Shown here: positions 5,301 to 39,483 of the stretch, piece by piece | Position numbering within the stretch: position 1 is the first letter of the stretch | Layout of the letters: each line of letters opens with the position of its first letter | Source: a virus | Reading direction: 5' to 3' (one strand) | DNA: 41,348 bases | IMG/VR virus record: IMGVR_UViG_3300036804_000119 | Coordinates: 1 to 41,348 of that record | Position numbers and translations under genes: made by a program | The notes under the pieces: generated by a model | What the model saw: only the letters and a program-made list of their open reading frames with translations | Told to the model about the DNA's origin: nothing | The model's database searches: none

Positions 5301-8300
5301 GACCCGATCCAAATAGTCGTTAGGCCGCAGCTTGCCCGAGATGAACTGCTTGCGGATGTTACCGGTCAGCTCCTTGTGTTCATCCGGGGAGAGCGGCGCT
5401 GGCATGAAGTGTACGCCCACCGGCACGTCGGGTCTGCCCTTGGGACTAGTTAACTCCTGGCCTAAGGTCTCTGTCAGTTTCTCATATCCAGGCACCTTTG
5501 GCCTAATCTCAGCCGGGATATGCTCCGGCGTCTCGTGCAGGGCATGAATCAACCCGGCGTTATAAGTGCGGATAGTCGGCTCTAAGATGTTTTTGCTCCA
5601 CCGATCATCAGCCGCTTTCTTTATGCCACCGTCCTTAATTTCTTCTGCTTTGCCACCTCGCAAGCCAGCCATATGGGCATCGATGTCGCGCCGGATCGGG
5701 TTAACTTCGCCTTCTTCGTTTAATAAGGTGCCTCCGGCTTTAGCTAACTCCTGATAGCCTTTACTATGCCGCGCGGCTTGATTGTTGATAACCGCATTCA
5801 TGAAATCGACTTCACGCTGCTTCAGCCGGTAGGGAACATATTTGCGGTCGGGATTAGCTGGATATTCTGCGGTGCCAGCTTGATAGCCTTTGCCAGTGCC
5901 TTTATGGCCAGCTAAAAGATTCTGCACGTAGCCAGCCAGATCGTTCCTGAACTTAGGGTGCCCCAGGTCTGGATAAGGCGACTCCTGACCCATTTCGGAA
6001 AGCGCCTCATTGAGCTTAGCGTGGTTGTGCGCCGCTACACTGGTCGAGATTCCCTGCACATAACCGCTAGAGTTTTGCGCCATTCCCTTGGCCCGATTTT
6101 TGCCTATCCCGATAGCGGTTGGGATCATCGAATCACCTGCCAACCTTCCATTGGTCCGACCTAACAATCGAGCCTGCGGACTAGAAGCATCGTAGTTAAC
6201 TTCGCGGCTGGCCCGCGTAATATCCGATTCTTTGCCAGGACCGGGAGGAGCCGAGATGTAACTAACATGCATCGGCTTTTTGTCAGCAATGGCCCTTTGG
6301 CCAGCGGCTAAGGCCACCTTTTCATTCTCAGGCAGGTCAGCCAGCATATGCTGATGCATAGGGTCGCCTGCAAGGAAGTGCTCCCCTTTAAACATATTGT
6401 CAGTTTGCTTCTGGACTCGAGTGTCATCGCTAGAAAGCAGACTCGCATGCAGCTTCTGGGCTTTAGTAATGTTATCAGGAGCATAGCCGCCTTGAGTTAA
6501 CAGCGATTTCAGCTTGCCGAACCCTTTAACGTTAGGTTCACCCAAAGTTGACTCTGCCGGTGCGCCGCCCTCTTCTTCGGGCGTAATGCCACCGATCCTT
6601 TGACCACGCATGTAATAGAGGCCACCACCACCACCGGGGGCCTCTGGAGCTTGCATACCAGCACCCATCTGCTGGGATTGCTGGATGGCTTCACCCTGAG
6701 TCATGGGAGCGCGCATCTGAGCGGCTGATGGCATCCCGAATGGATACATGCTAGCAAAGGGAGTCATGTGGGTCGCAGGCTCCTCCGCATAACCGCCACC
6801 GCCACCGCCGGTCGCAGCGCCTTCGCGCTCCGCTTCTTCCATCCCTGGTACTGCTGACTTTTCTTCTTCTTGTGCTGGCATTGGCGGCAAGGGCGAGTAA
6901 GGCACTTCTGCGCCACCACCGCCCCCTGGTCCTGAGGGCGCTGCGCCCTCACCACCGCCAGCCTGCCCACCGCCAGCCTGCGGGCCTTCTCCACTGGCCC
7001 ATTTGTCTTCTTCGCCTGACTTAACCTGCGGAGCTTTATCCGTAGGCAAATAAGCGTAGACATTGTCACCGAAACGATGTTGCCAGCCCTCGGTGGTGTA
7101 GTTCTTTTCCCAGTTGCCGTTTCTGGAGGAGTTGGAATAGATCGATTTACCGTCTTTACCCACGATGCCGGTGTGGCCGTAGATCCCTCCTTGGGCCGGA
7201 CTGACTACTATTGCTCCCGGTGTATTGACTGGCACCTTCTGATACCAGCCCTTGCTCGCGCCGTCCTCTAACTCGCTGTGCAAGGTGACCGTCGAAAGCG
7301 TGCGGGGCAGATCGATATGCATTTGCCCCCGCACGATGCGGGTGACCGCATCAGCACAAGCCAATTCTCCGCCGTTGGTGCCGGGATCTTGCACCGTATT
7401 CAAACGTCCCACGTTAGCCTCGGCAGCATCCGCTAGATTCTTGTAGCCTTTATAGGGAGCGCCTTGCGGCAGCTCGCCACCGGCAAAGCGGTAGCTCAGC
7501 GCCTGCTTACCGCTGGTAAAACCGATAGCCTGGGCTGTCCCGTGAAGCACGTCTAACCCAGCGCCGGTCGACTTCCCCGGCCCGATATCCACAATCGGAG
7601 CCAAGCCTTTTTTTCCATTAGCAGGGTTTGTCACCTCGACCATGACGTCATGGTTCTTCACCATCTGGGCGAAGCGAGGACTGGCGTGCCATGCACCGTT
7701 TTTGTCCCGGTAGATGGCGTTGTTGCCGAAGTGAGCCTGTAAATCTTCCGGCGGAACAGAAACGCCTTTTGTGTTCTCCCCTGATAAATCTTGAGAACCG
7801 AAATCACTGAACCCACGATTCTTGCTGGGATATTTCTCTGGATGAGCGGCAACCGCAGCCCGGTCGACCCAGCCGAACTCTGTGCTTGTAACGGTGCGTG
7901 AATCAGCGCTCGGGCCCGCAGCCTTGGGTGTTACCGCAGGTGATGGTTCTGGCTTGACCTCGGGCTGGCGCACCGTTGGTGCTACGTAAGGTGCTTTAGC
8001 AGCTTGTCCATTAGGTTGGACCTGTCCATTAGGCTGTTGTTGAGCGCGGGCCGTGGGGGCTACGTAGGGCGCTTTAGCGGTCTCTTGAGCGCGGGCCGTT
8101 GGCGCTACATAGGGTTTGGCGCTTGGGGCCGGGGGCGGCAGTGTCCCGACTGTCTCTGGGCCTTGATTAGGCGCAGCAGCATTTGTGCGCTGCGCGCCGA
8201 GAAGCGTTGGCGGGCTAAGAGCGTTAGCTGCTGTACCAAAGATTCCAGCACCCGGTTGCCAAACCGGCTTTGGGCTGCTCACTATCGGCCCTTTAGCGCC

Positions 8301-11300
8301 ACGCCTTCCCGGCATTTGAGACGGACCTTGGTCCTGCTCGAAGGTCTTGGGTTGCCGTCCTTCAACGATGGCTTGAGCTTCGCCTGCCGGGACTCCTCTT
8401 TTTATCAATTCCTCAAGCTGAGCATGATACTCAGGAGTGTTTGAGGCTGGGGTTTCAGGCGCTGGCGCTTCCGGCCCAGCCTTAGGAGCCGCTTTGCCGC
8501 CTCTTAGCTCATTTTCTGCCTGTAACCAGTCACTAACGTGATCACCGGATGTGCCCTTGGTTTCACGTTCTTGGCTGATTTCATAGGCGCGGCGCGCAAT
8601 AGCTTCCTGGGCTGGGGGCGCAGTGGGCGGAGCTGGCTCAGTCGGTACAGTCGGTCCTTTTCCGGTAGCGGCCTGAACCTCTGGACTCATGCCGGTCTGT
8701 TGCTCGTGAAGCGCGCCCTCAGCCGGGGTAGTAGGAGAAGTTGGCGGTGATGTGGTCGGCGGCGGAGTTGGCGGTGGTCGCCCAGTAGTGTCCCATGTAT
8801 CTCCAGGGTTCAGCGGCCAATTGCCCACCGGCCAGCTCGGATCTTTGGGATTCATCTGATAGCCCTTGGCCGCTTTGCGCCATAGACCATCTGATATAAG
8901 TCCGTTAGCGAAATAGGGATTGATGCCCATCTCGCTGGTTGACTTAAAGGTCTGGGTAGGAATTCCCATCCGTTCCAGCCAGCTGCCAGCCACCATGCGA
9001 ATGCTGCGTAATAACCCTGGGTTTTGTTTCGTGTATTGCTCGGCGTTTCCTGCGTTAAACCATTGCTTCAATGACTCCACTGCCATCTCGGTGCGAACCA
9101 ACTTCTTGGAGAGCATAGTCGGGTCCGCTGAGGGCGCATCTTCCGGCAGTGAGGCGTAAGTAGCTTTCTGATCGTAATGATCCTGAATGAATTTGTCTGG
9201 ATCATTGTACTTGAGCGCATTATTCATCAGCGCTTCTTGGTCGGCTTTAGAAGCAGAGAAAAAGATTCCGTGAGTCGCCTCGTGTGCGGCTGCTTCCTGA
9301 ATGCGATCTTTGAGGACAAAGCCTGCTCCCTGGCCAGTCCCCGTCCGATCTGGCCCTACCCAGAAACCGTAAGGCCGGGGCTGAGCATCGCCCCCAAAAC
9401 GTGCCTGATAATCATCGAGTACTTCAGGCGTGACTAGATAAAGCCTCGTGTTGCCGTTTTGAAAATGCTGGAGAGTAGCGAACTGATTCTTCTCATCGGG
9501 GGAGACGTCCTGAAGGTTAGCCTGCGAATGCGCATTTAAGTTTGGATCAGGTTGAGGATAATCCACCGGCGTGGTGTCACGGAATTCTCCCAGCCGCCCA
9601 AAGAGATTGTCACCTAACTCAGTCCCTACTGCTTGCCCGACTTGAGGAATGGCTCTGGCAGCAAATTGGACTGGGGCCAGTGTAGTCAGATTATCCCAGA
9701 ACCGGTTGGAGTCCCCGTCGCTATTTAGCAGCGCATAAGGCAGGGAATGAACAATAGAATCACTGGTAAGACGCGCGCCGCGACTAAGCAGTGACATCGG
9801 GCCACCCTGCTCGAAGTTCATCTTAGCGGCGTCATCCAGCACGTCAGTAGCAACGTGCCCCCACCTCCGATAAGCGCCCAATCCGAGACTACCAAGTGAA
9901 CCGCCCGTCGTCCACGCCAAGGCCAAGAGTGGGTTCTGGTGAAAAAAACCCTCATAATAGGCGACCCCCTGGCGAATCGGGGACATTGCGCCACTGTTCC
10001 AGAGCTTTTGGACACCTCCAGCTATTGGTGGCAGCACTCCGGCGACCTTAGCTGAACCGCCCAGCAGTTTAGAGCTGGCTAGATCCATGGAACCTTCTAT
10101 TTTCAGGGCTGGATCTAACGCCAGTTGAAGAGCCAAATTCGAAATATCAGAAGTGTCTTGAATCCGCTGGGTTGAAATCGGGCTTCCTTCTTTAGCCAAC
10201 TGTTCAGGGGAGGCATACTCCGCTCCACTGGGTAGCCAACCCATGCGCTTTTTCCAGTCTATATCCCATTGGTTAAACCCTTTGACCCAGCCCGGAACCT
10301 GACCGCTTTCTGTCTGACTAATAGCTTGAGCAACCGGGCGATGAGCACTGAAATAGGCTGCTAATTTTGGGGTCGGCCAGTTGGCGGCAGAATCCTTGCC
10401 CGTCAAATATTTCTGCCAATCAAACCCTGGTGGATTAAGGTCATAGTTATCGAAATCATCCAGGGCGTGACTCACTGCACGCACCTTGTCGTAAGTAAGA
10501 TTGAGGCCAGTGAAAACCTGCTGAAAAGCCTTGGTCTGCTGATGCTGGGCAAAGTTAGGATCAGATTGTGTGAGTAGTCCGGCAATCTGAACTTTGGTAG
10601 ATTGTTGTTCCTGCGGGCTTAGCTTCTCGTTAACCAGTTTGTCTTGCAGGGCTTGAGCCTGATTTACTAACGCGATATTCTGGTCATGGGTCTGCTGGTC
10701 GATAGTGTTGTTAGCCAGTTTGCCGTCTAGATCCTGGCGATAATCAATCGCGTTTTGGTTGCCGAAAGCTTGCAAGACATCATCGCCAGTTCCGCCAAGG
10801 GAGTTAACGATGCTCTTAAAATAGTTAATTGTGTTGGGAACGATGCCCTTAGTCTGAACGATGTTGTTCCACACATTGGACAGATCGTTCCACAGCACTG
10901 CTTTGTTGTTATCGAAGCTCTGATGACTGAGTTCCTGATTCTTTTTATTTTGCCAGAAGGCTGCAGCCCGATCTGGGTCAACATCATCTGAGGTAGAGAA
11001 ATAATGAAACAGATCGTCAGCACTTTTCTGATTTAACTCATCATCGCTCGGCTGAGCCTTGACTACCGGTGCCCGGTAAGCAGTCGGGATGTTAGTACCG
11101 GCATTGCTAAACTCATTGGACGTAGCCCCTGTCTGAGTCGGTGTCTGAGGTGTTTGAGCTTGGGGCGTCTGGCCAGGAGGGGTAGTGCCATCAGGGCTGG
11201 TGCCATCAGGGGCGGCTGGCGCAGGGAGTGTAGTTATGCCATAGCCAGGAGTGGATGCACTCTCAAGCGAACGCGGCCCAGCCGGGGTCGTAATGCCACC

Positions 11301-11492
11301 GGCTGCAGCATTGGCTTGCCCTATCTGCTGACCTTCGTCTGGCGGCTGCTGAGGCTGCGTACCGTTGCCGTCAGGTGCAGCAGGCGCAGTCGGCAGAGCA
11401 TAGCCAGGAGTGGATGCGCTCGGGGCACGCGCCTTTTGTTCTTCAGCCGCAGCCTTCAGCTGATCGAGCTGAGCTTGAGTGAGATCGGCCAT
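2331..11492 (-). CDS. Giant 3053-residue polyvalent virion protein (two HExxH regions, DUF2934, RlpA-like, CHAP-like, GNAT-like, DUF7178-like)
   Basis: Visible segments in order: disordered Pro/Gln/Thr-rich N-terminus (1-140) with a duplicated SASTPGY element; helical region (150-700) with a hydrophobic stretch near 520-545; AAAHEATHGIFF (HExxH) near 736; DUF2934-like helix (IARRAYEIS...DWLQAENEL) near 963-997; three PYVAPTxR repeats near 1127-1172; RlpA-like double-psi barrel (VEVTNPANGKKGLAPIVDIG) near 1240-1320; CHAP/NlpC-like domain with ELACADAV, PGAIVVSP and YGHTGIVG near 1372-1482; Gly-rich linkers; LPD23-like region with AHEIQHAVQ near 2216; GNAT-like segment (GAGAHAVIHAL...FYHQFGF) near 2400-2525; and a DUF7178-like C-terminus (NLNGRSMQATIDMWAARTMR...AILWFAEQKHW) near 2750-3010. 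Its ATG directly follows the upstream stop (TAAATG) with GAGGG upstream. Such polyvalent proteins are often injected with the DNA. Probable roles are wall degradation during entry, proteolysis and host modification. Domain names are by pattern, not search. Confidence 0.85.
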   Translation of the reverse strand: MADLTQAQLDQLKAAAEEQKARAPSASTPGYALPTAPAAPDGNGTQPQQPPDEGQQIGQANAAAGGITTPAGPRSLESASTPGYGITTLPAPAAPDGTSPDGTTPPGQTPQAQTPQTPTQTGATSNEFSNAGTNIPTAYRAPVVKAQPSDDELNQKSADDLFHYFSTSDDVDPDRAAAFWQNKKNQELSHQSFDNNKAVLWNDLSNVWNNIVQTKGIVPNTINYFKSIVNSLGGTGDDVLQAFGNQNAIDYRQDLDGKLANNTIDQQTHDQNIALVNQAQALQDKLVNEKLSPQEQQSTKVQIAGLLTQSDPNFAQHQQTKAFQQVFTGLNLTYDKVRAVSHALDDFDNYDLNPPGFDWQKYLTGKDSAANWPTPKLAAYFSAHRPVAQAISQTESGQVPGWVKGFNQWDIDWKKRMGWLPSGAEYASPEQLAKEGSPISTQRIQDTSDISNLALQLALDPALKIEGSMDLASSKLLGGSAKVAGVLPPIAGGVQKLWNSGAMSPIRQGVAYYEGFFHQNPLLALAWTTGGSLGSLGLGAYRRWGHVATDVLDDAAKMNFEQGGPMSLLSRGARLTSDSIVHSLPYALLNSDGDSNRFWDNLTTLAPVQFAARAIPQVGQAVGTELGDNLFGRLGEFRDTTPVDYPQPDPNLNAHSQANLQDVSPDEKNQFATLQHFQNGNTRLYLVTPEVLDDYQARFGGDAQPRPYGFWVGPDRTGTGQGAGFVLKDRIQEAAAHEATHGIFFSASKADQEALMNNALKYNDPDKFIQDHYDQKATYASLPEDAPSADPTMLSKKLVRTEMAVESLKQWFNAGNAEQYTKQNPGLLRSIRMVAGSWLERMGIPTQTFKSTSEMGINPYFANGLISDGLWRKAAKGYQMNPKDPSWPVGNWPLNPGDTWDTTGRPPPTPPPTTSPPTSPTTPAEGALHEQQTGMSPEVQAATGKGPTVPTEPAPPTAPPAQEAIARRAYEISQERETKGTSGDHVSDWLQAENELRGGKAAPKAGPEAPAPETPASNTPEYHAQLEELIKRGVPAGEAQAIVEGRQPKTFEQDQGPSQMPGRRGAKGPIVSSPKPVWQPGAGIFGTAANALSPPTLLGAQRTNAAAPNQGPETVGTLPPPAPSAKPYVAPTARAQETAKAPYVAPTARAQQQPNGQVQPNGQAAKAPYVAPTVRQPEVKPEPSPAVTPKAAGPSADSRTVTSTEFGWVDRAAVAAHPEKYPSKNRGFSDFGSQDLSGENTKGVSVPPEDLQAHFGNNAIYRDKNGAWHASPRFAQMVKNHDVMVEVTNPANGKKGLAPIVDIGPGKSTGAGLDVLHGTAQAIGFTSGKQALSYRFAGGELPQGAPYKGYKNLADAAEANVGRLNTVQDPGTNGGELACADAVTRIVRGQMHIDLPRTLSTVTLHSELEDGASKGWYQKVPVNTPGAIVVSPAQGGIYGHTGIVGKDGKSIYSNSSRNGNWEKNYTTEGWQHRFGDNVYAYLPTDKAPQVKSGEEDKWASGEGPQAGGGQAGGGEGAAPSGPGGGGGAEVPYSPLPPMPAQEEEKSAVPGMEEAEREGAATGGGGGGYAEEPATHMTPFASMYPFGMPSAAQMRAPMTQGEAIQQSQQMGAGMQAPEAPGGGGGLYYMRGQRIGGITPEEEGGAPAESTLGEPNVKGFGKLKSLLTQGGYAPDNITKAQKLHASLLSSDDTRVQKQTDNMFKGEHFLAGDPMHQHMLADLPENEKVALAAGQRAIADKKPMHVSYISAPPGPGKESDITRASREVNYDASSPQARLLGRTNGRLAGDSMIPTAIGIGKNRAKGMAQNSSGYVQGISTSVAAHNHAKLNEALSEMGQESPYPDLGHPKFRNDLAGYVQNLLAGHKGTGKGYQAGTAEYPANPDRKYVPYRLKQREVDFMNAVINNQAARHSKGYQELAKAGGTLLNEEGEVNPIRRDIDAHMAGLRGGKAEEIKDGGIKKAADDRWSKNILEPTIRTYNAGLIHALHETPEHIPAEIRPKVPGYEKLTETLGQELTSPKGRPDVPVGVHFMPAPLSPDEHKELTGNIRKQFISGKLRPNDYLDRVREVPEPGEPLGGVHYMPMAGPKATGFKVARALGKTFETPLPGGGQRFEIDDRDMSFKPTGRSAPVKGMHDLPRNALEERYQTDTRGPGAMPLSDAIQHPDLFENYPWLRNTKISMDPTLPHYGHYEQPWLDREGNMRGDHLVVKSPTDKETVAHEIQHAVQHYENFAGKGASADHLYAKMYNDTGIHDELRKQWDAAYPERSSMSESELDHNDNERFGWTNRRMREMAHAMYEMDPGEIEARVAGHRAIRTSPEQREAALEEIYGKGKAPESMMDIVRDTTPKEDVLEEMGRAATHGRIAGTMSGRPGISFMPGGVSKAEGEPTWKSVSPEEFIKQRDLSKRPQYLSPLAPEDIANHQLYTNDNGTAGVAVSPEGDIQNVFNNGGPKGAGAHAVIHALRNGGKTLDAFDPYLPDFYHQFGFHETGRMPFNRDYAPPKWKYEEDDDPDVVFMAHKGYHAGGESAALERAQDRESWIKHEPSTRLETDFDQAKDRSRREVSGVAGEVQGPQALGAGEEPSDQAGRIGGRPVAPEAPGISYMVAKKAAKGAKAPAPPPREITQETQDKLGPKPKDEKQAKLWQEAGERLDTQVKGAIPLEPDRTEDGQFKTESGGKVKYKKTNYDIANAPLLQKAGKALGQVLNKKTGKLQMAKAPDETEDDLHELDEEKRLTPYLNPTDRKRVSHLNDISAVDTFADKLHDMYKSIEHLPEVMGGKDWYDEAKTWLEHHFGGHADLVANLLAATSPGNKVKINYGMAIKAYHQFLRGAYDRHIDLYRKAYGIKQSGKGALMQHVVDKGIHTALGEEAPGTDEAAMEQYIEHHGITPRNEDGALFGHNSIHVLKVLAHTWEKEAGGPKAPNFAANLNGRSMQATIDMWAARTMRRLGYEGHTKEPWLIQPAGEPGVNDTDFGLSQLAFKKAADRIGIKPSSLQAILWFAEQKHWQAKGWERTQDAEDRDYRPMLKAYKRAPDITKAQMKRAEKVRQSVAGTA
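7974..8116 (-). repeat. Three degenerate PYVAPTxRxQ-coding repeats inside the giant gene
   Basis: Three copies of a segment coding for PYVAPTARAQ or PYVAPTVRQP lie in a Pro/Ala linker. The DNA shares GCTACGTAAGG or GCTACATAGGG cores, and the middle copy is followed by a doubled PNGQ. They separate the DUF2934-like region from the RlpA-like domain. They probably arose by slippage or unequal recombination and act as a flexible spacer. Confidence 0.6.
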
Positions 11493-14151: not shown

Positions 14152-16515
14152 TTAACTCAGATATCCAGTATTGTAGCCTTCCTCGGCCTGATCCTGTGGT
14201 TGAGCCATAAGGACATAGCCTCCCTGGGTATTAGGTCTATTCACCTGATGGCCTTGCAGGACGATATCAGGAGTCCGGCTTTTGAAATCGGAAGGACTGG
14301 GGATCGCGCTTTGAATCGGCCTGTATGGCTGGCTACCAGCGCCTTTGGTGAAAGCTTGAGCCACGCTTGAGCCCAGTTGCCCAACAGCGCCAGCGATATT
14401 ACCGGCAACCGAACTGGCTCCAGTATTGATGCCGTAGGTCTTCGGGTCATAGGCTTCGCCTTGGCCTGCCGGTAAGCCAACTAGTTGGGCTCGCGGAGCT
14501 GCACCATAGCCTGCCGGAGCTGAGACGAGACTTGCTCGCGGGGCATTGTCGGTGTAAGCAGGAGTTCCTGTCTGGGGAGTTGTTAGATTTTGCAGATAGC
14601 GCTGCACCTCATTAACATTCCCATTCTGCCCAATATAGGCTTGGCCCTGCGGCGTATGTCCGTATTGAGCTAACCATTGGTCGAGCGAGCCGGAATAACC
14701 GGGTTGTCGCTGTTGCTGCGGCTGGCCTGCAGGCGCAGCCGGTGCCGTGGGATGAACCTGGGCAACAGTAGCAGCGGGGCTGCTCGTGCCCCCCATCTGT
14801 GCCGACATCGGAGTAGGAGTTCCTGTGGAACCCTGGTAGCTGTTAACCAGTTGATTGTATTTCTGCTGAACTCGTTGTCCCGCCGTCCCGCCGCCTTGAA
14901 GAGCAACTTGCTCCTGTGGTGCGAGCTGGTTAAAAGCGTAGCTTTGGGCATCTGAGCTTTGGGCGTTTGTGTTTTGGGCGTCTGCGCCTAGTGAATAGCC
15001 GAGCCCGGATACCGGGCCCCCTTCTTGGAAACGCTGGCGCTGATCAAATGGAAGTGGGCTAAGACCGCCTTGGCCCGGTGTCCAACCCATAAGAGGATTA
15101 GGCGAGGCACCCGTCGCCAGAGCGACTTGAGGAGCGGGAAGAGCAGCCCCGCCGGGAGGAGGAACCCCGCCGGGACCCGGCCCAGGCATGGAGCCTCCCC
15201 TAAATGAAAGCGGGTCGGGACCACTTTGAGCTTGGCCTGGGAATCTAAACGGAAGCGGACTGGGACCACCTTGGCCCGGTGTCCAACCTAGAAGGGGATT
15301 AGACGCAGATTGAGCAGCTGTCGTCGGAACGTATTGAGGGATTTGAGAAGCTCCGCCGGGAGGGGCGACTCCGCCGGGTCCGGGCCCAGGCATAGTGCCT
15401 CTAGGCTGCATGGGCTCCGGCCCTTCTTGCCTTACAGCACCGCCGCGCCGGAAATGTTGCCCGTTAAGCTGATCCAATTTGTCTCTACCGAGCTTCTGGG
15501 CTGCTTGCTGATTAATCACGTATTCGCCTGGAGTCAGCATGGCTGGGACCGTGTCGGTGTCGCCCACTGAACCGCCTCCCGCCATATGTTTAATCGCCGT
15601 CCCGTATCCAGAAGCCAAACCGGGTGCCCCTGGAGGCGTTGCGCTCGGTGAAAGACTAGAGATCGGCCCAAAAGGCGATCCAGCAATAGCATTTCCTGGC
15701 GCTGCCGGAGGCTGCGGAAGCGTGGCCGGAGTGGCCGGAAGCTGAGCAGAAACCTGCGGCGTCTGCATCGTATGAATTGCCGGAGGCGTGGCAAAAGGGA
15801 CGCCGGTACTGGTCTGGGCTCCGGTCGGCTGCGCGGCTGGGTTGATATAAAGACCCGCTTGTTGGTTCTGCTGGATTTGATTCTGTTCCTGCGAATAGGC
15901 CTGCCTCGCACCGTACTTCATGTCCTGGCCCCGCATATAGGCGTTTTGCTGCGCCGTACTCATGTTCCCCCAATTAGGGTTGGTGTTCGCGGGCTGTTCT
16001 GTCATCGGGCCGCTGATCGTCGGCTTAAGGGGCTGGACCGCATTAAAGACGCTACCGATTTGCGGGTTAATAGTCGGAGTCTTCTGGCCGCTGATGTCAT
16101 AGTTCATGGGCCCGCTGACCGTGGAGACGCCGCTCTGGGCAAAGTTAGAGCTGGCCTGACCGGTGCCAGGAGTCTGGTTAACCGTCATGGACTTACTAGG
16201 GTTAAGCCCCACGGCTTGCAAAGCTTGTGCGCCTAACAAGTTAGATGCATAGGCCGGGTCCTGCGCGCCGCTTAACTGGATCGTGCCAGGAGGAGGGCCC
16301 TGCTGCTGCTGTTGCTGTTGTTGCCCAGGTCCGAAGCCTCCGAATCCGAATCCAGCACCGTAGGCTATATTCGAGAAGCCCCCATATTGCTGGGCCAGTT
16401 GACCTACTTGGCTTAAGGGAACATTCAGGGCTTGCAGCTGGTCACTGACAGGACTGCCGTACTGACTGGAAACCTGATCCCAGCTATTAAATGTTTGGGG
16501 TGAACCATCAGCCAT
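14152..16515 (-). CDS. Virion protein with TVPAMLTPGEYVI tail motif and internal repeats (787 aa)
   Basis: The start is ATG at 16515 with AAGGAATAGTT upstream. Residues about 1-60 are ordered, followed by a polyGln run (about residues 65-72). Near residues 310-355 is KHMAGGGSVGDTDTVPAMLT then PGEYVINQQAAQKLG. This GG.V.G..DTVPAMLTPGE.VI pattern is common at the ends of phage tape-measure and tail proteins, so this is probably a virion protein of the tail or ejection apparatus. Residues about 370-490 hold two copies of an approximately 70-residue unit (MPGPGPGGVxPPGGA ... NPLxGWTPGQGGxSPLPF). The rest is Gln/Pro/Ala-rich. It follows TfuA by two bases, so it shares the YcaO-TfuA transcript. Confidence 0.75.
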   Translation of the reverse strand: MADGSPQTFNSWDQVSSQYGSPVSDQLQALNVPLSQVGQLAQQYGGFSNIAYGAGFGFGGFGPGQQQQQQQQGPPPGTIQLSGAQDPAYASNLLGAQALQAVGLNPSKSMTVNQTPGTGQASSNFAQSGVSTVSGPMNYDISGQKTPTINPQIGSVFNAVQPLKPTISGPMTEQPANTNPNWGNMSTAQQNAYMRGQDMKYGARQAYSQEQNQIQQNQQAGLYINPAAQPTGAQTSTGVPFATPPAIHTMQTPQVSAQLPATPATLPQPPAAPGNAIAGSPFGPISSLSPSATPPGAPGLASGYGTAIKHMAGGGSVGDTDTVPAMLTPGEYVINQQAAQKLGRDKLDQLNGQHFRRGGAVRQEGPEPMQPRGTMPGPGPGGVAPPGGASQIPQYVPTTAAQSASNPLLGWTPGQGGPSPLPFRFPGQAQSGPDPLSFRGGSMPGPGPGGVPPPGGAALPAPQVALATGASPNPLMGWTPGQGGLSPLPFDQRQRFQEGGPVSGLGYSLGADAQNTNAQSSDAQSYAFNQLAPQEQVALQGGGTAGQRVQQKYNQLVNSYQGSTGTPTPMSAQMGGTSSPAATVAQVHPTAPAAPAGQPQQQRQPGYSGSLDQWLAQYGHTPQGQAYIGQNGNVNEVQRYLQNLTTPQTGTPAYTDNAPRASLVSAPAGYGAAPRAQLVGLPAGQGEAYDPKTYGINTGASSVAGNIAGAVGQLGSSVAQAFTKGAGSQPYRPIQSAIPSPSDFKSRTPDIVLQGHQVNRPNTQGGYVLMAQPQDQAEEGYNTGYLS
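15040..15410 (-). repeat. Tandem duplication of an approximately 207-bp unit inside the 787-aa gene
   Basis: Two units coding for MPGPGPGG(V)xPPGGA...NPL(L/M)GWTPGQGG(P/L)SPLPF lie about 207 bases apart. The DNA still matches well, for example GGTGTCCAACC(T/C)A followed by a GGATTA block in both. A half-copy (GPDPLSF) lies between them. This looks like a fairly recent tandem duplication that kept the reading frame. Confidence 0.75.
16300..16323 (-). repeat. CTG/TTG microsatellite coding for polyGln
   Basis: Eight consecutive CTG or TTG triplets on the plus strand encode eight Gln residues in the leftward 787-residue protein. Such runs can vary in length by slippage; copy number may differ between isolates without shifting the frame. 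Confidence 0.8.
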
Positions 16516-16517
16516 AA

Positions 16518-17837
16518 CTATTCCTTTGCTGCAGCTAGCCGACTCAAAGCCACTGCCAACTCGCGTTTATTGCTAAATCCGGTTTCCAACAAGTAAGCTT
16601 CCTGGGAGCTTTTCAGTTCCAGGCCTTCTCTATCAAATTGCTCCTGCAATAGTTTCCACGTTTCTAAATCCAGTGGCCACTCGTCGATCCCCATCCGTTC
16701 AATCTGGGCCTCTTTCTGCGCGGCCTTAATGGCCCAGTAGTCAAAGCCCTGATGGGTGCGCAAATAGTCGAGGATCGCACAAGTGTTGCGCCGGGAATGC
16801 TTGGAAGAACTCAAGGCGTGCTGCAGCTTGCGGATGCGGGCATTCTGCACCATCAGCCGGTCGTATTCGCCTCGGGTCCAGCCGTTATTAGCCAGCATGT
16901 TGCTGAAATCCTCGAGGCTCTTAATCTCGCACCGGCTCTGAAAGCGGGCCGATTCCATCTCGATCTCGCTTAAATCGACCGTGACAAAAAGTAAGTTACA
17001 CAAAACCAGGGCCAGCTCTTGGTTAGCACTGTCCCAGCAAATCCGCTCGTACTCCGGGTTGTGTAAAAGGACGTAGCTATCGATGTGCTGCTGGGCCAAC
17101 GGCTGGCCATTAACCTCAATGCGCCGGTCCCGGTCATAGAGAGCTTGGAAAGCGTGCGACAGATGGTCGGGCCTGGGCTTAACCTTTACCTGCGGCAGAT
17201 AGCTCCAGAAGTTAGTCAGGGCCTCGACCGCATCTAACTCTTTTTGCGGGATGCAAGGGAAACTGACTCCCAGGGCACCGGCCCACATCTCCTCACAAAG
17301 CGCGACCGTGCGCTGGCTGTAATGGATGGCCTGCATCACTTTTAAGAACTGTTCGACTGGCCCCACTGTCTCCGGGTGCTCCGCGAACTCTTTCTGGTAA
17401 TGCTCGACTCCGGCCCGGATATTAACTAACGGGACCGTGAGTGAATCATAGGCTCCCCCTGGCCGCTGCACGTAGTTAAGCGCCACCTCGGAGTCATCTT
17501 CAGTGACGCCATTATGATACCATTCGTAGATCTTACCGATCCCGATCATCCCCACGTAGTCCAGCTCAACCGCTCGCAAAGCACCAATAGAGGCCGCTCC
17601 GTAAATGGCTTTAACCCCTGGATGCTGCAGTGCATAGATGATCTCCTTGTGCCAGGGGCTCAAATTCTGCCGGAACTCGCCATCAATCAGGATCACAATG
17701 CTGGGGTTGAGATTGATGACGTCGCTGGCGATATCGCCCTGGCGAGCCGGTGGCTTGAATGTCGCCTCCGGTATAATCTTTTTGGCCTTTTCCAGTTCAA
17801 GGCTGGGGCCCAGGTAGACAAGGATCAGGTCGGACAT
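16518..17837 (-). CDS. tfuA: TfuA-like protein, partner of YcaO
   Basis: This is a 439-residue protein. Residues 1-145 carry the TfuA core: YLGPSLELEKAK (8-19), FKPPARQGDI (27-36), VILIDGEF (48-55), WHKEIIYAL (62-70), YGAASIGALRAVEL (79-92), VGMIGIGKIYEWY (95-107), EDDSEVAL (113-120) and PLVNIRA (136-142). TfuA proteins act with YcaO cyclodehydratases, best known for backbone thioamide formation in thioamitide peptides and in methanogen McrA, where TfuA is thought to help deliver sulfur or substrate. The C-terminal 290 residues are a helical extension (ANNGWTRGEYDRLMVQNARI). The start at 17837 has a near-perfect Shine-Dalgarno site and overlaps the end of ycaO by 13 bases, so translation is coupled. 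Identification is by motif; the target is unknown. Confidence 0.9.
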   Translation of the reverse strand: MSDLILVYLGPSLELEKAKKIIPEATFKPPARQGDIASDVINLNPSIVILIDGEFRQNLSPWHKEIIYALQHPGVKAIYGAASIGALRAVELDYVGMIGIGKIYEWYHNGVTEDDSEVALNYVQRPGGAYDSLTVPLVNIRAGVEHYQKEFAEHPETVGPVEQFLKVMQAIHYSQRTVALCEEMWAGALGVSFPCIPQKELDAVEALTNFWSYLPQVKVKPRPDHLSHAFQALYDRDRRIEVNGQPLAQQHIDSYVLLHNPEYERICWDSANQELALVLCNLLFVTVDLSEIEMESARFQSRCEIKSLEDFSNMLANNGWTRGEYDRLMVQNARIRKLQHALSSSKHSRRNTCAILDYLRTHQGFDYWAIKAAQKEAQIERMGIDEWPLDLETWKLLQEQFDREGLELKSSQEAYLLETGFSNKRELAVALSRLAAAKE

Positions 17838-19045
17838 TCTTTATCCTCCTTAAGTTCTTCCAGCTTGCGCTGGGCGTAAGAAAGGCAGCGCAGGCCCGGA
17901 GTCCAATAGTCGAACCGGTGGGGCTCGCACTGAGGCGAAAGGACCCGCACCACATGCAGGCAATCCGCATGCCGTCCTAAATCCTTAACGAAGACTTCGC
18001 TAACGCCCCGGCTCTTAAGTAACTTTAACAAATAACGTAATTCGCTTTTGATATCAGGGAACTCGAGCTTGCGGTATTCGCTGATGGAAGAGCCCCGCTC
18101 TAACTCGTTAAACATCTGGTCGAGCTTCGTCTGATCCATCCGCTTCATTAAGAGGAACTGGCGGCGTAAGAGGTCATCGCGCGCGCCGGAGATGTAGCAG
18201 GCACGGCCCTGGATGGCCTCGGTGATCGCCCGCAAAGCGGCGCTCTCCGCATTCAGGTGGCATCCGTATCCGGCAAAGGTTCCGGCACAGTTGCCGCTTA
18301 AATCCAGAATGGTTGCGGTAAAGACCGGCACCTGATAATCGGTTGTGCAATCAAAGAGATGCAGCTTGAGGTCCTGTTCCTCTAACCGTTTAACGATAGC
18401 CTCAATCTCGGGACACAAACTAACTAGCGGCATCCGGTTAGCTAAAATCCCTAAGTTCTCCATCATGTAGGTGTGGATCGTCCAGCCGTCGCGTTCCACG
18501 ATCTCGTAGAGGCCCGAAAGAATCGCATCTTCCAATGTCGCCCCGCTGGCTAAGCCATTTGAACCGACCTGAAAGTACATGACCGGCTGCGCTTCGAGCC
18601 GGGGCACTATCCAGATAAGATCACTGGGGACAAGCTTGACGGCCCCGTTCTGGATGTTAGTCGTCTCTTCCCAGGCAATGGGCGTTAGCTCGTTAACTAT
18701 CGAAGCCCGGATAGGGAAACAATCCTCTACCGGCAAATGGTCTTCTTCGGGCAGCTGGAGACTGTTAGCCAGCCTAAAGTCGCCAAAAGGGTGCTCAGCC
18801 ACCTCAAACTCAATGGCCTCGGCGATGGCTCCGGCGCGGGCAAACTTCGCTTCTAGGCCTTTACCGGCATGAATAGAAAGGGTCTGAGAAAGTGCCCTGG
18901 TAGTGGTGAAGACCGGCACTCCGATAGTGTCTAGTCCGGTCACATCGGCCACCCGCGAGATCGCGAACTTCTCCAACAGCTCTTCGCGGGTAAGCCGGTT
19001 AAGGGCCTCAGCACAAGCTTCGCGCAACTCTAAGCGGGTAGGCAT
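17825..19045 (-). CDS. ycaO: YcaO-family ATP-dependent backbone-modifying enzyme
   Basis: This 406-residue protein carries the YcaO signature blocks: SIHAGKGLEAKFARAGAIAE then AIE (57-79, with E76 and E79), SNGLASGATLEDAILSGLYE then IVERD (162-186, with E173, E181, E184, R185 and D186), and AGYGCHLNAESAALRAITEA then IQGR (258-281, with E267, R272, E276 and R281). In characterised YcaO proteins these acidic and Arg residues bind Mg-ATP and phosphorylate a backbone amide, giving azolines or, with TfuA and a sulfur source, thioamides. Length is normal for a stand-alone YcaO. The C-terminus (KELKEDKECPT) lacks the Pro-rich tail typical of azoline-forming members. The start at 19045 overlaps the end of the upstream virion gene by 16 bases and has no clear Shine-Dalgarno site, which points to coupled translation. 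The natural target is unknown. Confidence 0.93.
   Translation of the reverse strand: MPTRLELREACAEALNRLTREELLEKFAISRVADVTGLDTIGVPVFTTTRALSQTLSIHAGKGLEAKFARAGAIAEAIEFEVAEHPFGDFRLANSLQLPEEDHLPVEDCFPIRASIVNELTPIAWEETTNIQNGAVKLVPSDLIWIVPRLEAQPVMYFQVGSNGLASGATLEDAILSGLYEIVERDGWTIHTYMMENLGILANRMPLVSLCPEIEAIVKRLEEQDLKLHLFDCTTDYQVPVFTATILDLSGNCAGTFAGYGCHLNAESAALRAITEAIQGRACYISGARDDLLRRQFLLMKRMDQTKLDQMFNELERGSSISEYRKLEFPDIKSELRYLLKLLKSRGVSEVFVKDLGRHADCLHVVRVLSPQCEPHRFDYWTPGLRCLSYAQRKLEELKEDKECPT
17844..17851 (-). promoter_or_regulatory. Strong Shine-Dalgarno site for tfuA
   Basis: Read leftward, AAGGAGGA lies six bases before the ATG at 17837 and inside the last codons of ycaO. It is among the strongest ribosome-binding sites in the window and fixes the tfuA start. 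Confidence 0.85.
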
Positions 19046-20532
19046 ATGTAGGTCGTCCGGTCGGTCACCAGGGTCATTAATCCCCTCACCAGGGCCCCTA
19101 GCAGCCTGTTCTGGGCGACTTTAGGAGCCAGGGAAGGTCCATACACTAGGTAGGTTCTGCGGACGATCCTGGGGGCTTTATTCATCAGCCAATGCCGGAA
19201 TACACGCCACTTAGGCGAGTCCTCGCCGAATGCGGCACGGGCCACCCAACAGGCTCCTGCTGCGGTGGCTCCGACTACTGCTGCAGTCGAACCGGCTGAG
19301 ACCAGGGCTCCGGTCGTAGCCGATTGCTGTTGCGCAGCCATCTGTTGGTTCTGGGCATTGAGCTGAGCCTGATTAAAGGCGATGCCGTTCATGGTCGCAT
19401 AATTTGCCTGTTGAAAACTGTTGTAAGCCCCGGCTTGACCCAGCTCAGTCTGTGCCATGTTAGTTCCGCCCATCCCAAAGGGCCGCTTCTGGAACATATT
19501 CCCGGCAGTCTGCATGTTGAGCATTAGATTGGTGGCCTGCTGGTTCTGCAGGTTGCCATAGATGTTGGCCATCTGGGACGTGTCCATCCCGTACTGCTCC
19601 TGGGCTTGTTGAGCAGCATTGGAAAGCTGGCCAGCCTGACCTGCGGTCTGGGCTCCTAACCCAAGAGTCTGGGCTCCTTGACCCAAGACACCTGCTCCTA
19701 GTCCCATGGTCTGAGCCCCGGAGCCAATCGTTTGCGCGCCAAGACCTGAGAGCTGTCCACCCTGGCCCATAATGGATGCGGCTTGGGAGATATCGCCCAT
19801 GGCCTCGCCCCGCATTGCTTGGCCATACTGCAGCGTGTTTAAGCCTAACTGCCGCGCGGCAGCGGATTGTCCGGCCATGCCCTGGCCTAATGAAGCGGCA
19901 CCTAACCCAGCGCCCATTGTAGTTCCCAGCCCCGCCCGCATCATTTGCTGCTGGGTCTGCGGATCAATCGGCTCCTGCAAGAGTTGCTGGCCTAAAGCGT
20001 AAGGAGTTGCCGCCATGCCGCTGAGCTGCTGGCCCTGTCCGTATAACTGCCCGCCCATAGCCCCTTGCTGTGCGCCCATGTTAACCATGGGCTGGGCTAG
20101 ACCAGCCTGCTGGGCACCCAGGCCCATGATCGGCTGGACTGCCCCGCCCACGGTCGAAGCCGCGTTACGGATGGAATTGATGTCGCTAGTCGTCGGAGTG
20201 CCTTGACGGCCCGCAATCTGGTTAGCTAACCCACCCATGACCGACTGGAGGCCACCTGTGGCCGCTCCGGCAGCATTAACTTGGTTCCCTAGGTTAGCTT
20301 GCCACTGCTGGTAAGCATTCTGTAGCGCCGGATAGCGGTTAGCGAAATCCGCGTCACTTAACGCATAACTCTGGACATCGCCTCCGATGGCCATCTGGTT
20401 GAGGGCCTGGGCGCTATTATAATCAAACCCAGGAGGAGTGCCTTGGGCCTTGAATTGACTACTGCCGCCGCCGCCGCCGCCGCCAAAGTAGCGCGGACCA
20501 AATAGCCATACTATGAAATCAAACAGTCTCAT
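19030..20532 (-). CDS. Gly/Gln/Ala-rich virion protein with CWVAR C-terminal domain; candidate YcaO-TfuA substrate
   Basis: This 500-residue protein starts at 20532 with GAGG upstream and overlaps the previous gene by 4 bases (ATGA). A hydrophobic N-terminus (MRLFDFIVWLFGP) leads into a run of seven Gly. Residues 40-410 are helical and low-complexity with heptad-like repeats (GAQTMGLGAGVLGQGAQTLG), typical of phage needle or ejection proteins. Residues about 410-427 are a small hydrophobic stretch (AAVVGATAAGA). Residues 428-475 read CWVARAAFGEDSPKWRVFRH, WLMNKAPRIVRRTYLVYGPS and LAPKV. I recall similar C-W/F-V/I-A...Y/F-G...LR/FR...YY..G/S.P.A C-terminal modules in other phage and surface proteins. 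The tail (TDRTTYICLPA) overlaps the start of ycaO. Virion location and substrate role are inferred. Confidence 0.78.
   Translation of the reverse strand: MRLFDFIVWLFGPRYFGGGGGGGSSQFKAQGTPPGFDYNSAQALNQMAIGGDVQSYALSDADFANRYPALQNAYQQWQANLGNQVNAAGAATGGLQSVMGGLANQIAGRQGTPTTSDINSIRNAASTVGGAVQPIMGLGAQQAGLAQPMVNMGAQQGAMGGQLYGQGQQLSGMAATPYALGQQLLQEPIDPQTQQQMMRAGLGTTMGAGLGAASLGQGMAGQSAAARQLGLNTLQYGQAMRGEAMGDISQAASIMGQGGQLSGLGAQTIGSGAQTMGLGAGVLGQGAQTLGLGAQTAGQAGQLSNAAQQAQEQYGMDTSQMANIYGNLQNQQATNLMLNMQTAGNMFQKRPFGMGGTNMAQTELGQAGAYNSFQQANYATMNGIAFNQAQLNAQNQQMAAQQQSATTGALVSAGSTAAVVGATAAGACWVARAAFGEDSPKWRVFRHWLMNKAPRIVRRTYLVYGPSLAPKVAQNRLLGALVRGLMTLVTDRTTYICLPA
20464..20484 (-). repeat. Seven GCC triplets coding for polyGly
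   Basis: Seven consecutive GCC triplets on the plus strand encode seven Gly after the hydrophobic N-terminus of the 500-residue protein. It is a candidate slippage tract. Confidence 0.8.
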
Positions 20533-20939
20533 GGGGCCTCTTCGTCGTAGATATAAGCCGTTTCGTCGGCTCGCTTGAGCCGAATCCGCCTAAAATTGTT
20601 AGCTCCGAACTCCTGATCTTTTTTGCACATCATGAAGATCGGGTTACCCACCATGCGTTTAAACTCAGTCACAAGGCTGCGCACGATGTGCAAAAACTCG
20701 CGAGGACTGAGCCGCTCCGGGTGCAGCGCCGGGTAAACCACGAATTGTTGAACAGTTAGGAAATAACCAACCGGTTGACCGTGATAGAAGACGATGTAAA
20801 CCGGGTATTGGCGCGGGCAGTCTCCGCCCCACAGATCGCGGGATAAGAGATCGACTCCCCAGTTGCGCATCTCTTTTTCATCATTGATGCGGATCAGGGA
20901 GATCCCCTCTTTGTCAGGCATTTTATGCAAGTCTTGCAT
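20529..20939 (-). CDS. GNAT-like small phage protein
   Basis: This is a 136-residue protein from ATG at 20939 (MQDLHKMPDKEG). The segment PVYIVFYHGQPVGYFLTVQQ then FVVYPALHPERLSPREFLHI, VRSLVTEFKR and NPIFM matches the strand-strand-helix pattern of GNAT folds as seen in small phage proteins near tail genes (x-x-G-Q-P-V-G-Y-F, V-x-P-A-L-H-P). The C-terminus (NNFRRIRLKRADETAYIYDE) is compatible with the last GNAT strands. It overlaps the fibre gene by 17 bases and the next gene by 4, so it is part of the tail block. It could acetylate a virion or host protein, or be a structural derivative of the fold; no catalytic residue can be assigned from sequence alone. Confidence 0.6.
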   Translation of the reverse strand: MQDLHKMPDKEGISLIRINDEKEMRNWGVDLLSRDLWGGDCPRQYPVYIVFYHGQPVGYFLTVQQFVVYPALHPERLSPREFLHIVRSLVTEFKRMVGNPIFMMCKKDQEFGANNFRRIRLKRADETAYIYDEEAP

Positions 20940-26635: not shown

Positions 26636-27877
26636 TTACATCGCGTAACCGCTAGCAGAGCCAGGATAGCTCGGGCAGGTTAGGAAGTTGAAGGTCGGGT
26701 TGCACCTCTTGTACATGATCGGGATAACGGCGTGAGGCCGCTCCGGGCGATAAGCCCTGATCATTTGATAGATGTGGTAGCCGTAGTCACCGTAGGTGTT
26801 GCAATCATTGTCTCTGATGACAGTGAATTCCAATTCTCCTTGCGCGAATTGCGCCGGGAATTTCCAGTCACCAACTCCTAAGTATTGCTCGGGAACTAAC
26901 CGGCGGAACGAGTTGGCGAACATGAGGAAGCCAACCTCGTATTGGGCATAGAGCCACGCTGGGTTAGTCCGCGCACCGAAACCAGTGGTCACCGGCACCG
27001 CAATCTCGGGTTCGATGAACTGCGGAATCAACTGGCCGTTTAGGACGGTAAATTGGTTGAATCTGAGAGGCTGTTGGTCAATACCGAACGCAATCCCGCG
27101 ATAGGGTCCTTCCCAGGTGTACCCGGTGATGGACTCATTGCCCAGCTCGTAGCGACCTGTGGTCAGGTACTGCAAGTCTTGGTGAACATTGAGTTCATCG
27201 CGGAAAACGTTCAGCTGGCTTTGGGAACCGATGAACTTAGCTACCGTTCCCTTCTCGGACTCGAAGCTTTCGCATAACAGAGTCTCATGTGCGAAAACTA
27301 ACAAATACTGCATGAAGCTGAAGGTGAGGTTGGCGTCCGGTGGCGTCGAATCGTTCACAGGAACGTCGATCATCTGGACATCGCCATTGACCATCTGCTC
27401 GAAGGTGCGGCCCTGGTTAATCTTAACCTTGACGCCGCTATGCAGGAACAACTGGCTGCGCACGTCGCAGTTGGCCAGATAGAGCAACTGCTTTTGAAGG
27501 CTGTCTTGGACCGCGACATAGGAATTCTGAAATGCCGACCGCATCTGTTTTACACAGACCTTAGGTCCGCGACCTCTGAGCGTACCTAACCGGGTTACGT
27601 ATTCGGTCGTGCCCACCTGCGCGATCTGACCAAAGGTTCCGCAGGAATCGGTGTCGTTGATGTATTCTGGCAGCACCAGGGACTGGCCCAGAATCGGTCG
27701 TTCAACGACCACGTTGCGCTGTTGATCGGAAATGGCGTTCTCGAAAACGCCGCCATCTAGAGTGTCATTGTACGGCGCGCGCCGCATAATGAGAGTCGTG
27801 ATCTGGCCAACTAGACGGTTGTTGTCTCGGTTGGCAAAATCGGTCGCCTGTACGGGAGTGACGATACAATCGCCCAT
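26636..27877 (-). CDS. Major capsid protein
   Basis: This is a 413-residue protein starting at 27877 (MGDCIVTPVQATDFANRDNN). The composition is that of an HK97-like or podovirus-type capsid protein: few Lys runs, many aromatic and Asn/Gln residues, and folded throughout. Segments such as KQMRSAFQNSYVAVQDSLQK (a long central spine-like helix), PEIAVPVTTGFGARTNPAWL, AQYEVGFLMFANSFRRLVPE and GDWKFPAQFAQGEL fit A-domain and P-domain elements. The middle contains FAHETLLCESFESEKGTVAK. Synteny is strong: scaffold and portal are upstream, a capsid-accessory protein and connector are downstream. It is preceded by a 167-base hairpin-rich leader and followed by a hairpin terminator, consistent with independent tuning. 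Fold assignment is inferred. Confidence 0.85.
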   Translation of the reverse strand: MGDCIVTPVQATDFANRDNNRLVGQITTLIMRRAPYNDTLDGGVFENAISDQQRNVVVERPILGQSLVLPEYINDTDSCGTFGQIAQVGTTEYVTRLGTLRGRGPKVCVKQMRSAFQNSYVAVQDSLQKQLLYLANCDVRSQLFLHSGVKVKINQGRTFEQMVNGDVQMIDVPVNDSTPPDANLTFSFMQYLLVFAHETLLCESFESEKGTVAKFIGSQSQLNVFRDELNVHQDLQYLTTGRYELGNESITGYTWEGPYRGIAFGIDQQPLRFNQFTVLNGQLIPQFIEPEIAVPVTTGFGARTNPAWLYAQYEVGFLMFANSFRRLVPEQYLGVGDWKFPAQFAQGELEFTVIRDNDCNTYGDYGYHIYQMIRAYRPERPHAVIPIMYKRCNPTFNFLTCPSYPGSASGYAM

Positions 27878-30825: not shown

Positions 30826-30831
30826 AATCTT

Positions 30832-37671: not shown

Positions 37672-39483
37672 CTAGAGATCCTGAGTGAAGTCGATGTACT
37701 GGGTGCGTTCGCGCGGGCCGATGTTGCCGTCCGGCTGGAGCGCGGCCCGCTTAGATCCAACCATACTCGCTTTTTCGGGCCCATTAAGCGCGCAGCCGTG
37801 AACTAGCATCACTAGGCCGTCGCCGATGTCCGGCGACCAGCCCAGGCGCTTTTTAAACTCTTTCTTGGGCTCAAGCCGAATGCGCGGTTTGCCCGATGGG
37901 CCTTTACTGGAGGGCTGGAACCGGCGGCTGGACAGCTCTTTAAAGAGCTGGGTGGTCTGCACCTGGGGATGGATACACAGAAGGCCGAATTCCAGAAACT
38001 TGCGCACCCGCATATGCATCTCGGTCGTCACGCCATCGTAGACCTCGACTGCGTAATCGTGATCATCAGCCAGGAGCTTGCGCGCGCCCGATTCCGCGCC
38101 CCACATGACTCCCCGGATTGAACCACTCCACTGTTCGCACATAGCATCGTGGGTGCCGGTGCCCACTCCGGTGCGGTCGCAGGTCACCCAGTCAGGATGG
38201 ATGTTGAGGCCTTTGCATTTAACTTCCAGGCTACTAGCAAGCGCTATCGTTTTCTCTTTCGGCATATCGTAGTACTGGTCAACCTGCACGGCGTAGCGGG
38301 GCTTCTTAAAAAGGATAGGGACGCCCCGCAGCGGCTGGAAGCCGATGGCTTTACCGTATTTGCCCACTACCAGAATGATGCGGTCCCCGCCTTCACTGGC
38401 CAGATCGATTCCGGCAGCTCCCACCGTGCGCCCGTCGAAGATGAACTGGCCGATCACCGGCTCGAGCAACGAGTAGGGGATGAGAGTGTTCTGGAGCGCC
38501 GAGAGCGGATACATGCCGCGCCCGAAAGTCAGGTAGCGGCTGGACTGCCCTCCTAACTCCAGAGCATAAATCTGGTAACCGTCCCAGGTCAGGAAACCCG
38601 GAAAAATTAACTGCCGCTGTTGAACATTCTCACTGTCAGCCCCATCGAGTCTAAGGACGCTCCAGCGCTCGCTAGAGTACCATTCCTTGTCCTTATCGAG
38701 ATCGATCTGCGTCCACCCGCATGCCGGTTCAGCGAGTTGCGCGAGCTTACTCGTGACATCTCGTGGATTGGTTGCACAGCAGACTTTGACTGCTTCAGCG
38801 CCCCAGGCAGAGGCGAGAAGATTTGCCACGCCTTCCCATACTCCCGCAGGAATCTCTTCCGCCTCGTCCAGAAAGGCTCGGACGCGCGACATACTTCCAA
38901 AGGCCGGATGAGCGCGGCTTCGGGGCACTGGGTGAAAACCTTGAAGAACACCTTTGCCATCTTCACCCTGTGGGATTGCCACGAGCGTGATGGCACTGTG
39001 CCGGTCCTTAGGGTTAAGGCCGACAAACATATCCATCGCCAGCCCCGGAAGGGGGATAATGGCGTTCTGGTACAAACGTTGGAGGGTGGAGAAGCTTTGC
39101 GACTTCGCATGGCCACCCGTCGTCGAAATGATCTTAATCTCTGTGAATTCTGGGTCACGTATCCAATCCAGTAAAAGGTAACAAATTATCGTGTAAGTCT
39201 TGCCCAGCGCCGCCCCGCCTAGAACGATCAAATTCTGGGTAGTGCGGACTTTCTGAATGACTTGTTTGACGGCCTGGGGCCCGTAATTGAAAAGGGCCTC
39301 CCCCCAAAGGATAAGGCCCGCAGCCCCATAACGTTCAGTCTCAAGGAGCCGTTTTGCGAGCGCCCAGATCCAGCTCTTGGCTTGATCTGGGCTTTCGACC
39401 GAGTTGTCTATCTGGTAGACGGCCCGGACTAACTCTTCATCAGTTCCTTCACCACACTCGCGACGAAACTGCACCAGATCCAT
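37672..39483 (-). CDS. terL: Terminase large subunit
   Basis: This 603-residue protein contains an ATPase domain with Walker A GGAALGKT (89-96), a Walker B-like VRAFLDEAEE (201-210, DE at 206-207) and the coupling motif CATNP (236-240). The nuclease domain has GIDLASEGGDRIILVVGKYG (about 365), with the first acidic cluster, and VTCDRTGVGTGTHDAMCEQW (about 440) with the second. It powers DNA translocation into the prohead and cuts the concatemer. It starts at 39483 within the preceding overlapping frames, with no strong Shine-Dalgarno site. The C-terminus ends FTQDL at 37672. Order terminase-portal-scaffold-capsid confirms the call. Confidence 0.92.
   Translation of the reverse strand: MDLVQFRRECGEGTDEELVRAVYQIDNSVESPDQAKSWIWALAKRLLETERYGAAGLILWGEALFNYGPQAVKQVIQKVRTTQNLIVLGGAALGKTYTIICYLLLDWIRDPEFTEIKIISTTGGHAKSQSFSTLQRLYQNAIIPLPGLAMDMFVGLNPKDRHSAITLVAIPQGEDGKGVLQGFHPVPRSRAHPAFGSMSRVRAFLDEAEEIPAGVWEGVANLLASAWGAEAVKVCCATNPRDVTSKLAQLAEPACGWTQIDLDKDKEWYSSERWSVLRLDGADSENVQQRQLIFPGFLTWDGYQIYALELGGQSSRYLTFGRGMYPLSALQNTLIPYSLLEPVIGQFIFDGRTVGAAGIDLASEGGDRIILVVGKYGKAIGFQPLRGVPILFKKPRYAVQVDQYYDMPKEKTIALASSLEVKCKGLNIHPDWVTCDRTGVGTGTHDAMCEQWSGSIRGVMWGAESGARKLLADDHDYAVEVYDGVTTEMHMRVRKFLEFGLLCIHPQVQTTQLFKELSSRRFQPSSKGPSGKPRIRLEPKKEFKKRLGWSPDIGDGLVMLVHGCALNGPEKASMVGSKRAALQPDGNIGPRERTQYIDFTQDL

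Follow-up and report, generated by a model that had tools for sequence, protein, structure and literature searches.

A YcaO-TfuA gene pair among virion-type genes

The stretch of DNA analysed here (the window) is the linear IMG/VR virus record IMGVR_UViG_3300036804_000119, 41,348 bases long, which carries adjacent genes for a YcaO, an ATP-dependent enzyme that activates backbone amides, and for a TfuA. Near relatives of this phage reach 74-78 kb, and the window is therefore a genome fragment. Its genes run in the order portal-like, scaffold-like, capsid-like, two tail-type, fibre, P4, P3, YcaO, TfuA, P6, P7 and a giant protein, P12 (Table 1), and by position this order is like that of T7 genes 8-9-10-11-12-13-14-15-16, with the YcaO-TfuA pair lying between '14' and '15'. 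An earlier note, made from the letters of the window, had described the pair; its coordinates and shared direction were exact, both genes being on the minus strand, as were the overlaps of 13 bases between YcaO and TfuA (17825-17837) and of 16 bases between P3 and YcaO (19030-19045). We propose phage-borne backbone thioamidation of a virion protein of the ejection module, most likely the adjacent P3, a reading that we rate slightly above even.

The YcaO matches Pfam PF02624 over 324 of 325 model positions (E 1.8e-58; 198.8 bits against a cut-off of 25.7), and TIGR00702 at 154 bits, again above the cut-off (75.65). The TfuA matches the full PF07812 model (E 1.1e-30; 106.3 bits, cut-off 30), its N-terminal TfuA domain occupying residues 52-177. 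The nearest solved structures are the methanogen YcaO MJ1094 (6pe3, E 9e-31) and a TfuA-domain protein (6xp8, E 6e-25), so that the profile and structure searches named as checks in the earlier note place both genes in the families it had read from their motifs. The three ATP-binding signature blocks that it recognised are likewise intact: the ATP/Mg-site residues E76, E79, E181, E184, R185, D186, R272, E276, Q279 and R281 are kept in 42 clusters of viral YcaOs, one truncated sequence excepted, and N163 is kept in 41 of the 42. In 12 viral TfuAs the blocks GPS, W-H-K-E, G-A-S-x-G-A-L-R-A, E-V-A and P-L-x-x-x-R are retained, again in line with the note. Phage TfuAs also share a conserved C-terminal extension of ~260 amino acids (16518-17300 in the window) that has no Pfam match. 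Ratios of non-synonymous to synonymous change (dN/dS) among near relatives (dS 0.4-1.4) were 0.055-0.08 for YcaO, 0.09-0.11 for TfuA, 0.09-0.12 for P3 and 0.02 for the capsid protein; the low values for YcaO and TfuA reflect purifying selection and indicate functioning genes. The YcaO has an isoelectric point of 5.1.

Distribution of the viral pair

Profile scans for YcaO and TfuA, together with a scan using a broad YcaO alignment, gave 90 viral YcaO sequences in IMG/VR that form 42 clusters at 85% identity. A contig scan with four near-identical sequences returned no match, but a broader alignment succeeded. In a quick tree, whose cellular sampling was restricted by the search patterns used, the viral sequences fall into two clades of 21 clusters each (Shimodaira-Hasegawa-like approximate likelihood-ratio test, SH-aLRT, 96 and 99), separate from 60 cellular representatives. 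The two clades may have a single viral origin; contigs in the 40-42 kb range make up most of the second. In 39 of the 42 clusters no more than 450 bases separate TfuA from YcaO, the remaining three running out at a contig edge, and TfuA is downstream in all 39 that could be assessed. Among 50,697 phage records there was no relative of the TfuA, capsid or portal proteins, and the only YcaO was of E. coli type (PV468777.1, 33783-34913, in a record named Escherichia phage Entero_P88), perhaps representing host flank or a captured host gene. No report of YcaO or TfuA in phages was found in the open-access literature.

Within the lineage of the window, three contigs with 89-94% identical YcaO retain all neighbours. 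A scan with the capsid protein gave 20 loci, and YcaO was present in 15 and TfuA in 14 of the 19 records tested. The single record with YcaO but without TfuA ends just past YcaO, and the four records without YcaO are fragments, two of which clearly stop short of the cassette position while two are pieces of 8-11 kb, which makes the pair a core component of the lineage. In phages whose YcaOs share only 62-66% identity, the capsid protein still shows 93-99% identity. Its low dN/dS, with saturated silent changes, indicates constraint and not recent exchange.

Linkage to P3-type proteins

The gene immediately upstream of YcaO encodes a C-terminal 'C-x-V-A-R-x-x-[YF]-G ... FR' (CxVAR) domain in 33 of the 42 clusters, or in 34 if L153, with a 420-base gap before YcaO, is counted. 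The survey of phage neighbours called for in the earlier note thus returned TfuA in every assessable cluster and a P3-type gene upstream in almost all. The 42 clusters are not independent observations, gene order being inherited within clades. The cassette also stays whole when it moves: P4-P3-YcaO-TfuA is intact in one contig (G019) in which 31 kb separate it from the capsid gene, and in another (G014) where it is oriented away from that gene, which speaks for a functional connection of YcaO-TfuA with P3-type proteins. YcaO-TfuA is present at each of the 80 cellular homologue loci sampled, and none of the 80 has P3 or P4 nearby, making the link to P3 and P4 phage-specific.

In the window P3, Gly, Ala and Gln make up 50% of residues 1-427, and the protein divides into an acidic part (isoelectric point 4.9 for residues 1-420) and a basic part (10.9 for residues 421-500). 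The structural model has a mean predicted local distance difference test score (pLDDT) of 54 and consists of low-confidence long helices, with the exception of a basic helical domain at residues 428-492 that carries the motif CWVARAAFG and is predicted with confidence; pLDDT exceeds 90 only around 430-490. Fold-search matches of P3 were left unused, the model being low-confidence coil apart from this C-terminal domain. In five of 13 P3 sequences the C-terminal domain matches NCBIfam CFI-box-CTERM (NF041770) in register, weakly and under the cut-off (best E 8e-4), which is only suggestive of relationship. The CxVARxxYG...FR domain recurs at the C-terminus of ejection-type proteins in unrelated phages, including the window (19030-19290), HMO-2011 gene 25 and L199. 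For P4, the AlphaFold2 model (pLDDT 88) gave GNATs as its best PDB fold matches, although weakly (E 0.026, probability 0.84, template-modelling score about 0.35).

The claim that the pair sits in a virion-gene transcript is supported; the virion role of the upstream gene is put forward from position, composition and synteny, and no profile names P3. Gene order, the helical prediction and the weakly GNAT-like P4 suggest T7-like internal virion proteins. Sequence homology of the window's structural genes to T7 was not demonstrable: with respect to gp13 and gp14, most members had no PHROG match at E 0.01, and there was no PDB sequence match.

A probable protein substrate and a possible source of sulfide

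Between 11.5 and 22.2 kb the genes of the window abut or overlap, leaving no free-standing short open reading frame (ORF) beside the pair, and no precursor peptide gene was found there in relatives, the only recurrent short ORF being ThiS-like. This bears out the absence of a short precursor gene remarked on in the earlier note. A pair inside a virion-gene transcript that lacks a precursor of the ribosomally synthesised and post-translationally modified peptide (RiPP) type probably acts on a protein. Of the long virion or host protein that the note had envisaged as substrate, the protein character is supported by the missing precursor and the linkage to P3; between virion and host, gene linkage favours the virion.

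Part of the second clade has, between YcaO and TfuA, a gene for a ThiS/MoaD-family protein of 88 amino acids that ends in AGG. The gene was present in 12 of 30 records tested, and all five of the products tested matched Pfam PF02597 above the cut-off (E 3e-8 to 5e-9 in four, 8e-8 in the fifth). An apparent lack of TfuA in some contigs of this clade was ruled out, as TfuA is present beyond the intervening ThiS-like gene. Thioamide-forming YcaOs are described as receiving sulfide from thiocarboxylated ThiS homologues and a TfuA hydrolase (PMC13063428), and ThiS is also encoded in some RiPP clusters with TfuA (PMC8120280). The predicted phage ThiS is the strongest evidence for thioamides rather than azolines as the product of the phage systems. 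The azoline-type model TIGR03604 gives the window YcaO 105.8 bits, under its cut-off of 219.25, and Pfam detected no ThiF-type domain in the proteins adjoining YcaO. Strict pairing with TfuA and the ThiS gene together disfavour the alternative -18 Da (cyclodehydration) product of the earlier note.

Proposed chemistry

In YcaO chemistry, a nucleophile adds to an amide carbonyl, ATP phosphorylates the resulting oxyanion and phosphate leaves; with sulfide as the nucleophile, a thioamide is formed. The phage YcaO would bind ATP/Mg and, after attack by sulfide, phosphorylate the backbone amide oxygen, leaving the thioamide (C=S). TfuA, its probable sulfide-releasing partner, would free sulfide from a thiocarboxylated carrier of ThiS/MoaD type, encoded by some relatives themselves and presumably drawn from the host by the phage of the window. 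From what is known of these families, we consider thioamidation chemistry quite likely in this phage. The target would be an ejection-module protein of the same transcript, with P3 the first candidate. Linkage and late-gene position make a virion rather than a host target fairly probable, and P3 itself as that target falls just short of an even chance. Modification might stiffen or protect the target during packaging or ejection; any advantage, whether in stability, in resistance to proteases or in control of conformation while ejection proceeds, is speculative. For McrA, a stabilising effect of the thioamide on local structure is presumed (PMC5589413).

Comparison with known systems

The closest parallel is the methanogen system that modifies an McrA glycine, in which both families are encoded by adjacent genes with overlapping ends and the substrate is a long protein, no precursor peptide being involved. 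The phage has no McrA, however, and differs in the long C-terminal extension of TfuA and in its virion-gene neighbours. The best NCBIfam matches of the YcaO, TIGR03266 (174.7 bits, equivalog cut-off 365) and NF033432 (140.1 bits, cut-off 235.2), were both far under their cut-offs. The E. coli YcaO that modifies uL16 recognises a full protein by its fold and not through a leader peptide (PMC13063428), and resembles the proposed phage system in having a full-protein target, but it works without TfuA. Thioamitide and other thioamidated-RiPP clusters (PMC8120280, PMC6511847) share the YcaO-TfuA pair, and in some cases ThiS, whereas the phage pair lacks precursor peptide, tailoring and export genes and is linked to ejection genes. 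Phage HMO-2011 provides a likeness on the side of P3: its gene 25 encodes a CxVAR C-terminal domain (53% identical to that of L168) and precedes gp15/gp16-like genes, yet its complete 55-kb genome contains neither YcaO nor TfuA.

Small peptides apart, only two natural proteins, McrA and uL16, neither of them viral, have so far been reported to carry backbone thioamides (PMC13063428). We hold tentatively, at somewhat less than an even chance, that the phage YcaO-(ThiS)-TfuA system places backbone thioamides in a virion protein ejected into the host, as the first viral case and the third natural protein target. The chemistry and families are known; a viral, virion-linked, conserved cassette that in part brings its own sulfur carrier was not found in the open-access literature. 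If the proposal is correct, viruses chemically edit protein backbones, probably those of their own particles, and phages harbour a large pool of protein-thioamidating enzymes that had gone unreported. The cassette would then give practical access to new protein substrates of thioamidation and to the effect of a thioamide on a protein that must unfold, travel and refold.

Which protein may be modified

Several observations weigh against P3-directed thioamidation. The CxVAR domain occurs without YcaO in HMO-2011 and in contig G020. Conversely, YcaO follows a P3 homologue lacking this domain in L159, L160 and L164, and in L165 and L214 it follows a gene, also lacking CxVAR, that is P3-type by position and composition only. 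The domain is therefore neither necessary nor sufficient and is not assignable as the modified site; as sole substrate it had been attractive, being common to otherwise unrelated YcaO neighbours, and was rejected on these same contigs. The P3 core F-x-x-R-x-[FY]-G-x-x-G, invariant in 20 P3s, was also dismissed as the modification site, since by eye it is absent from the P3-type proteins of L165, L168, L169, L188 and L189. With no short P3 motif common to all lineages, the YcaO-P3 linkage may in part be old inherited gene order. The L228/L223 pair is a further exception to the upstream P3 arrangement: in L228, YcaO-TfuA stands alone on the opposite strand between phosphoesterase-like and DNA methylase genes, and the genome has a CxVAR gene elsewhere, followed directly by the next virion gene. 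Finally, neither the window nor any of 17 relatives tested has a ThiS gene, and this lineage would depend on a host carrier.

Phage enzymes often remodel host machinery, and the pair could thioamidate a host protein, such as one of the ribosome or the envelope, late in infection, with the position in the virion block serving only for late expression. The location of the L228 pair outside that block fits this account, as does the fact that the only known protein targets, McrA (PMC5589413) and ribosomal uL16 (PMC13063428), are cellular. We nevertheless consider it unlikely, because the same structural neighbour is kept in very diverged phages and despite changed position relative to the capsid gene, and because the phage YcaO belongs to another subfamily than the uL16-type enzymes, which have no TfuA (50.9 bits to NF040716 against a cut-off of 700). 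Less likely again is a different virion protein as target, whether P4, P6/P7, the giant P12 or the highly conserved capsid protein. All share a common transcript with the pair, many clusters retain P4 next to P3, the capsid protein shows a dN/dS of only 0.02, and in L261 (12,085 bases) YcaO-TfuA lies in a different virion-gene context, between a portal gene (weak SU10_portal match) and SU10-type capsid genes. None of these proteins, however, is a constant neighbour across both YcaO clades, and no relative of the capsid protein could be detected in the pair-carrying records L165, L168, L188 and L189, some of which are fragments. Production of a small thioamidated peptide directed at competitors or the host is very improbable: most bacterial YcaO-TfuA pairs studied do lie in thioamidated-RiPP clusters (PMC8120280), but the abutting and overlapping phage genes leave no precursor, there is no export, protease or RiPP recognition element gene, and the constant linkage is to virion genes instead.

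Other features of the window

Table 1. Coordinates of the pair, its neighbours and other genes (window positions unless a contig is named)
Feature	Position	Strand	Basis or remark
YcaO-type ATP-dependent amide-backbone activating enzyme, 406 aa (amino acids)	17825..19045	-	PF02624
TfuA, 439 aa	16518..17837	-	PF07812; 6xp8 match
P3, 500 aa, Gly/Ala/Gln-rich, mainly helical, ejection-type	19030..20532	-	directly upstream of YcaO in almost all viral clusters
P4, 136 aa, weakly GNAT-like fold, position of T7 gp13	20529..20939	-	gene before P3; conserved there
Tail-fibre-like protein, upstream of P4	20923..22218	-	PHROG 4492 'tail fiber protein', E 2e-11
P6, 787 aa, virion-type, after TfuA, position of T7 gp15	14152..16515	-	position; weak tape-measure PHROG matches, E 4e-3
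P7, 881 aa, after P6	11493..14138	-	position and synteny
P12, giant, 3053 aa, position of T7 gp16	2331..11492	-	DUF7178, E 2e-12; CHAP, E 7e-4 (below cut-off)
Probable major capsid protein, lineage marker	26636..27877	-	position after portal- and scaffold-like genes
Terminase large subunit	37672..39483	-	PHROG 2, E 3e-9
HNH endonuclease genes, homing-endonuclease-like, among head genes	30319-30825 (NUMOD4 + HNH_3), 36292-36690 (HNH_3)	-	
Three glycosyltransferase-like genes, scaffold-like to capsid interval	28045-32238	-	kept in relatives
ThiS-carrying contigs, ~41 kb	L206, L213, L216, L218, L222, L227, L236, L243-L245, L266, L267 (e.g. L216:9158-9424)	+ (L216)	

The capsid protein of the window had no match in PHROGs, Pfam or the 50,697 phage records. 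In P12, the DUF7178 match lies near the C-terminus and the weak CHAP match in the middle of the protein, which is probably an ejected multi-enzyme protein. Among the three glycosyltransferase-like genes, 30832-32238 has a PHROG glycosyltransferase match (8e-6) and 29036-30331 a weak match to DUF6492.

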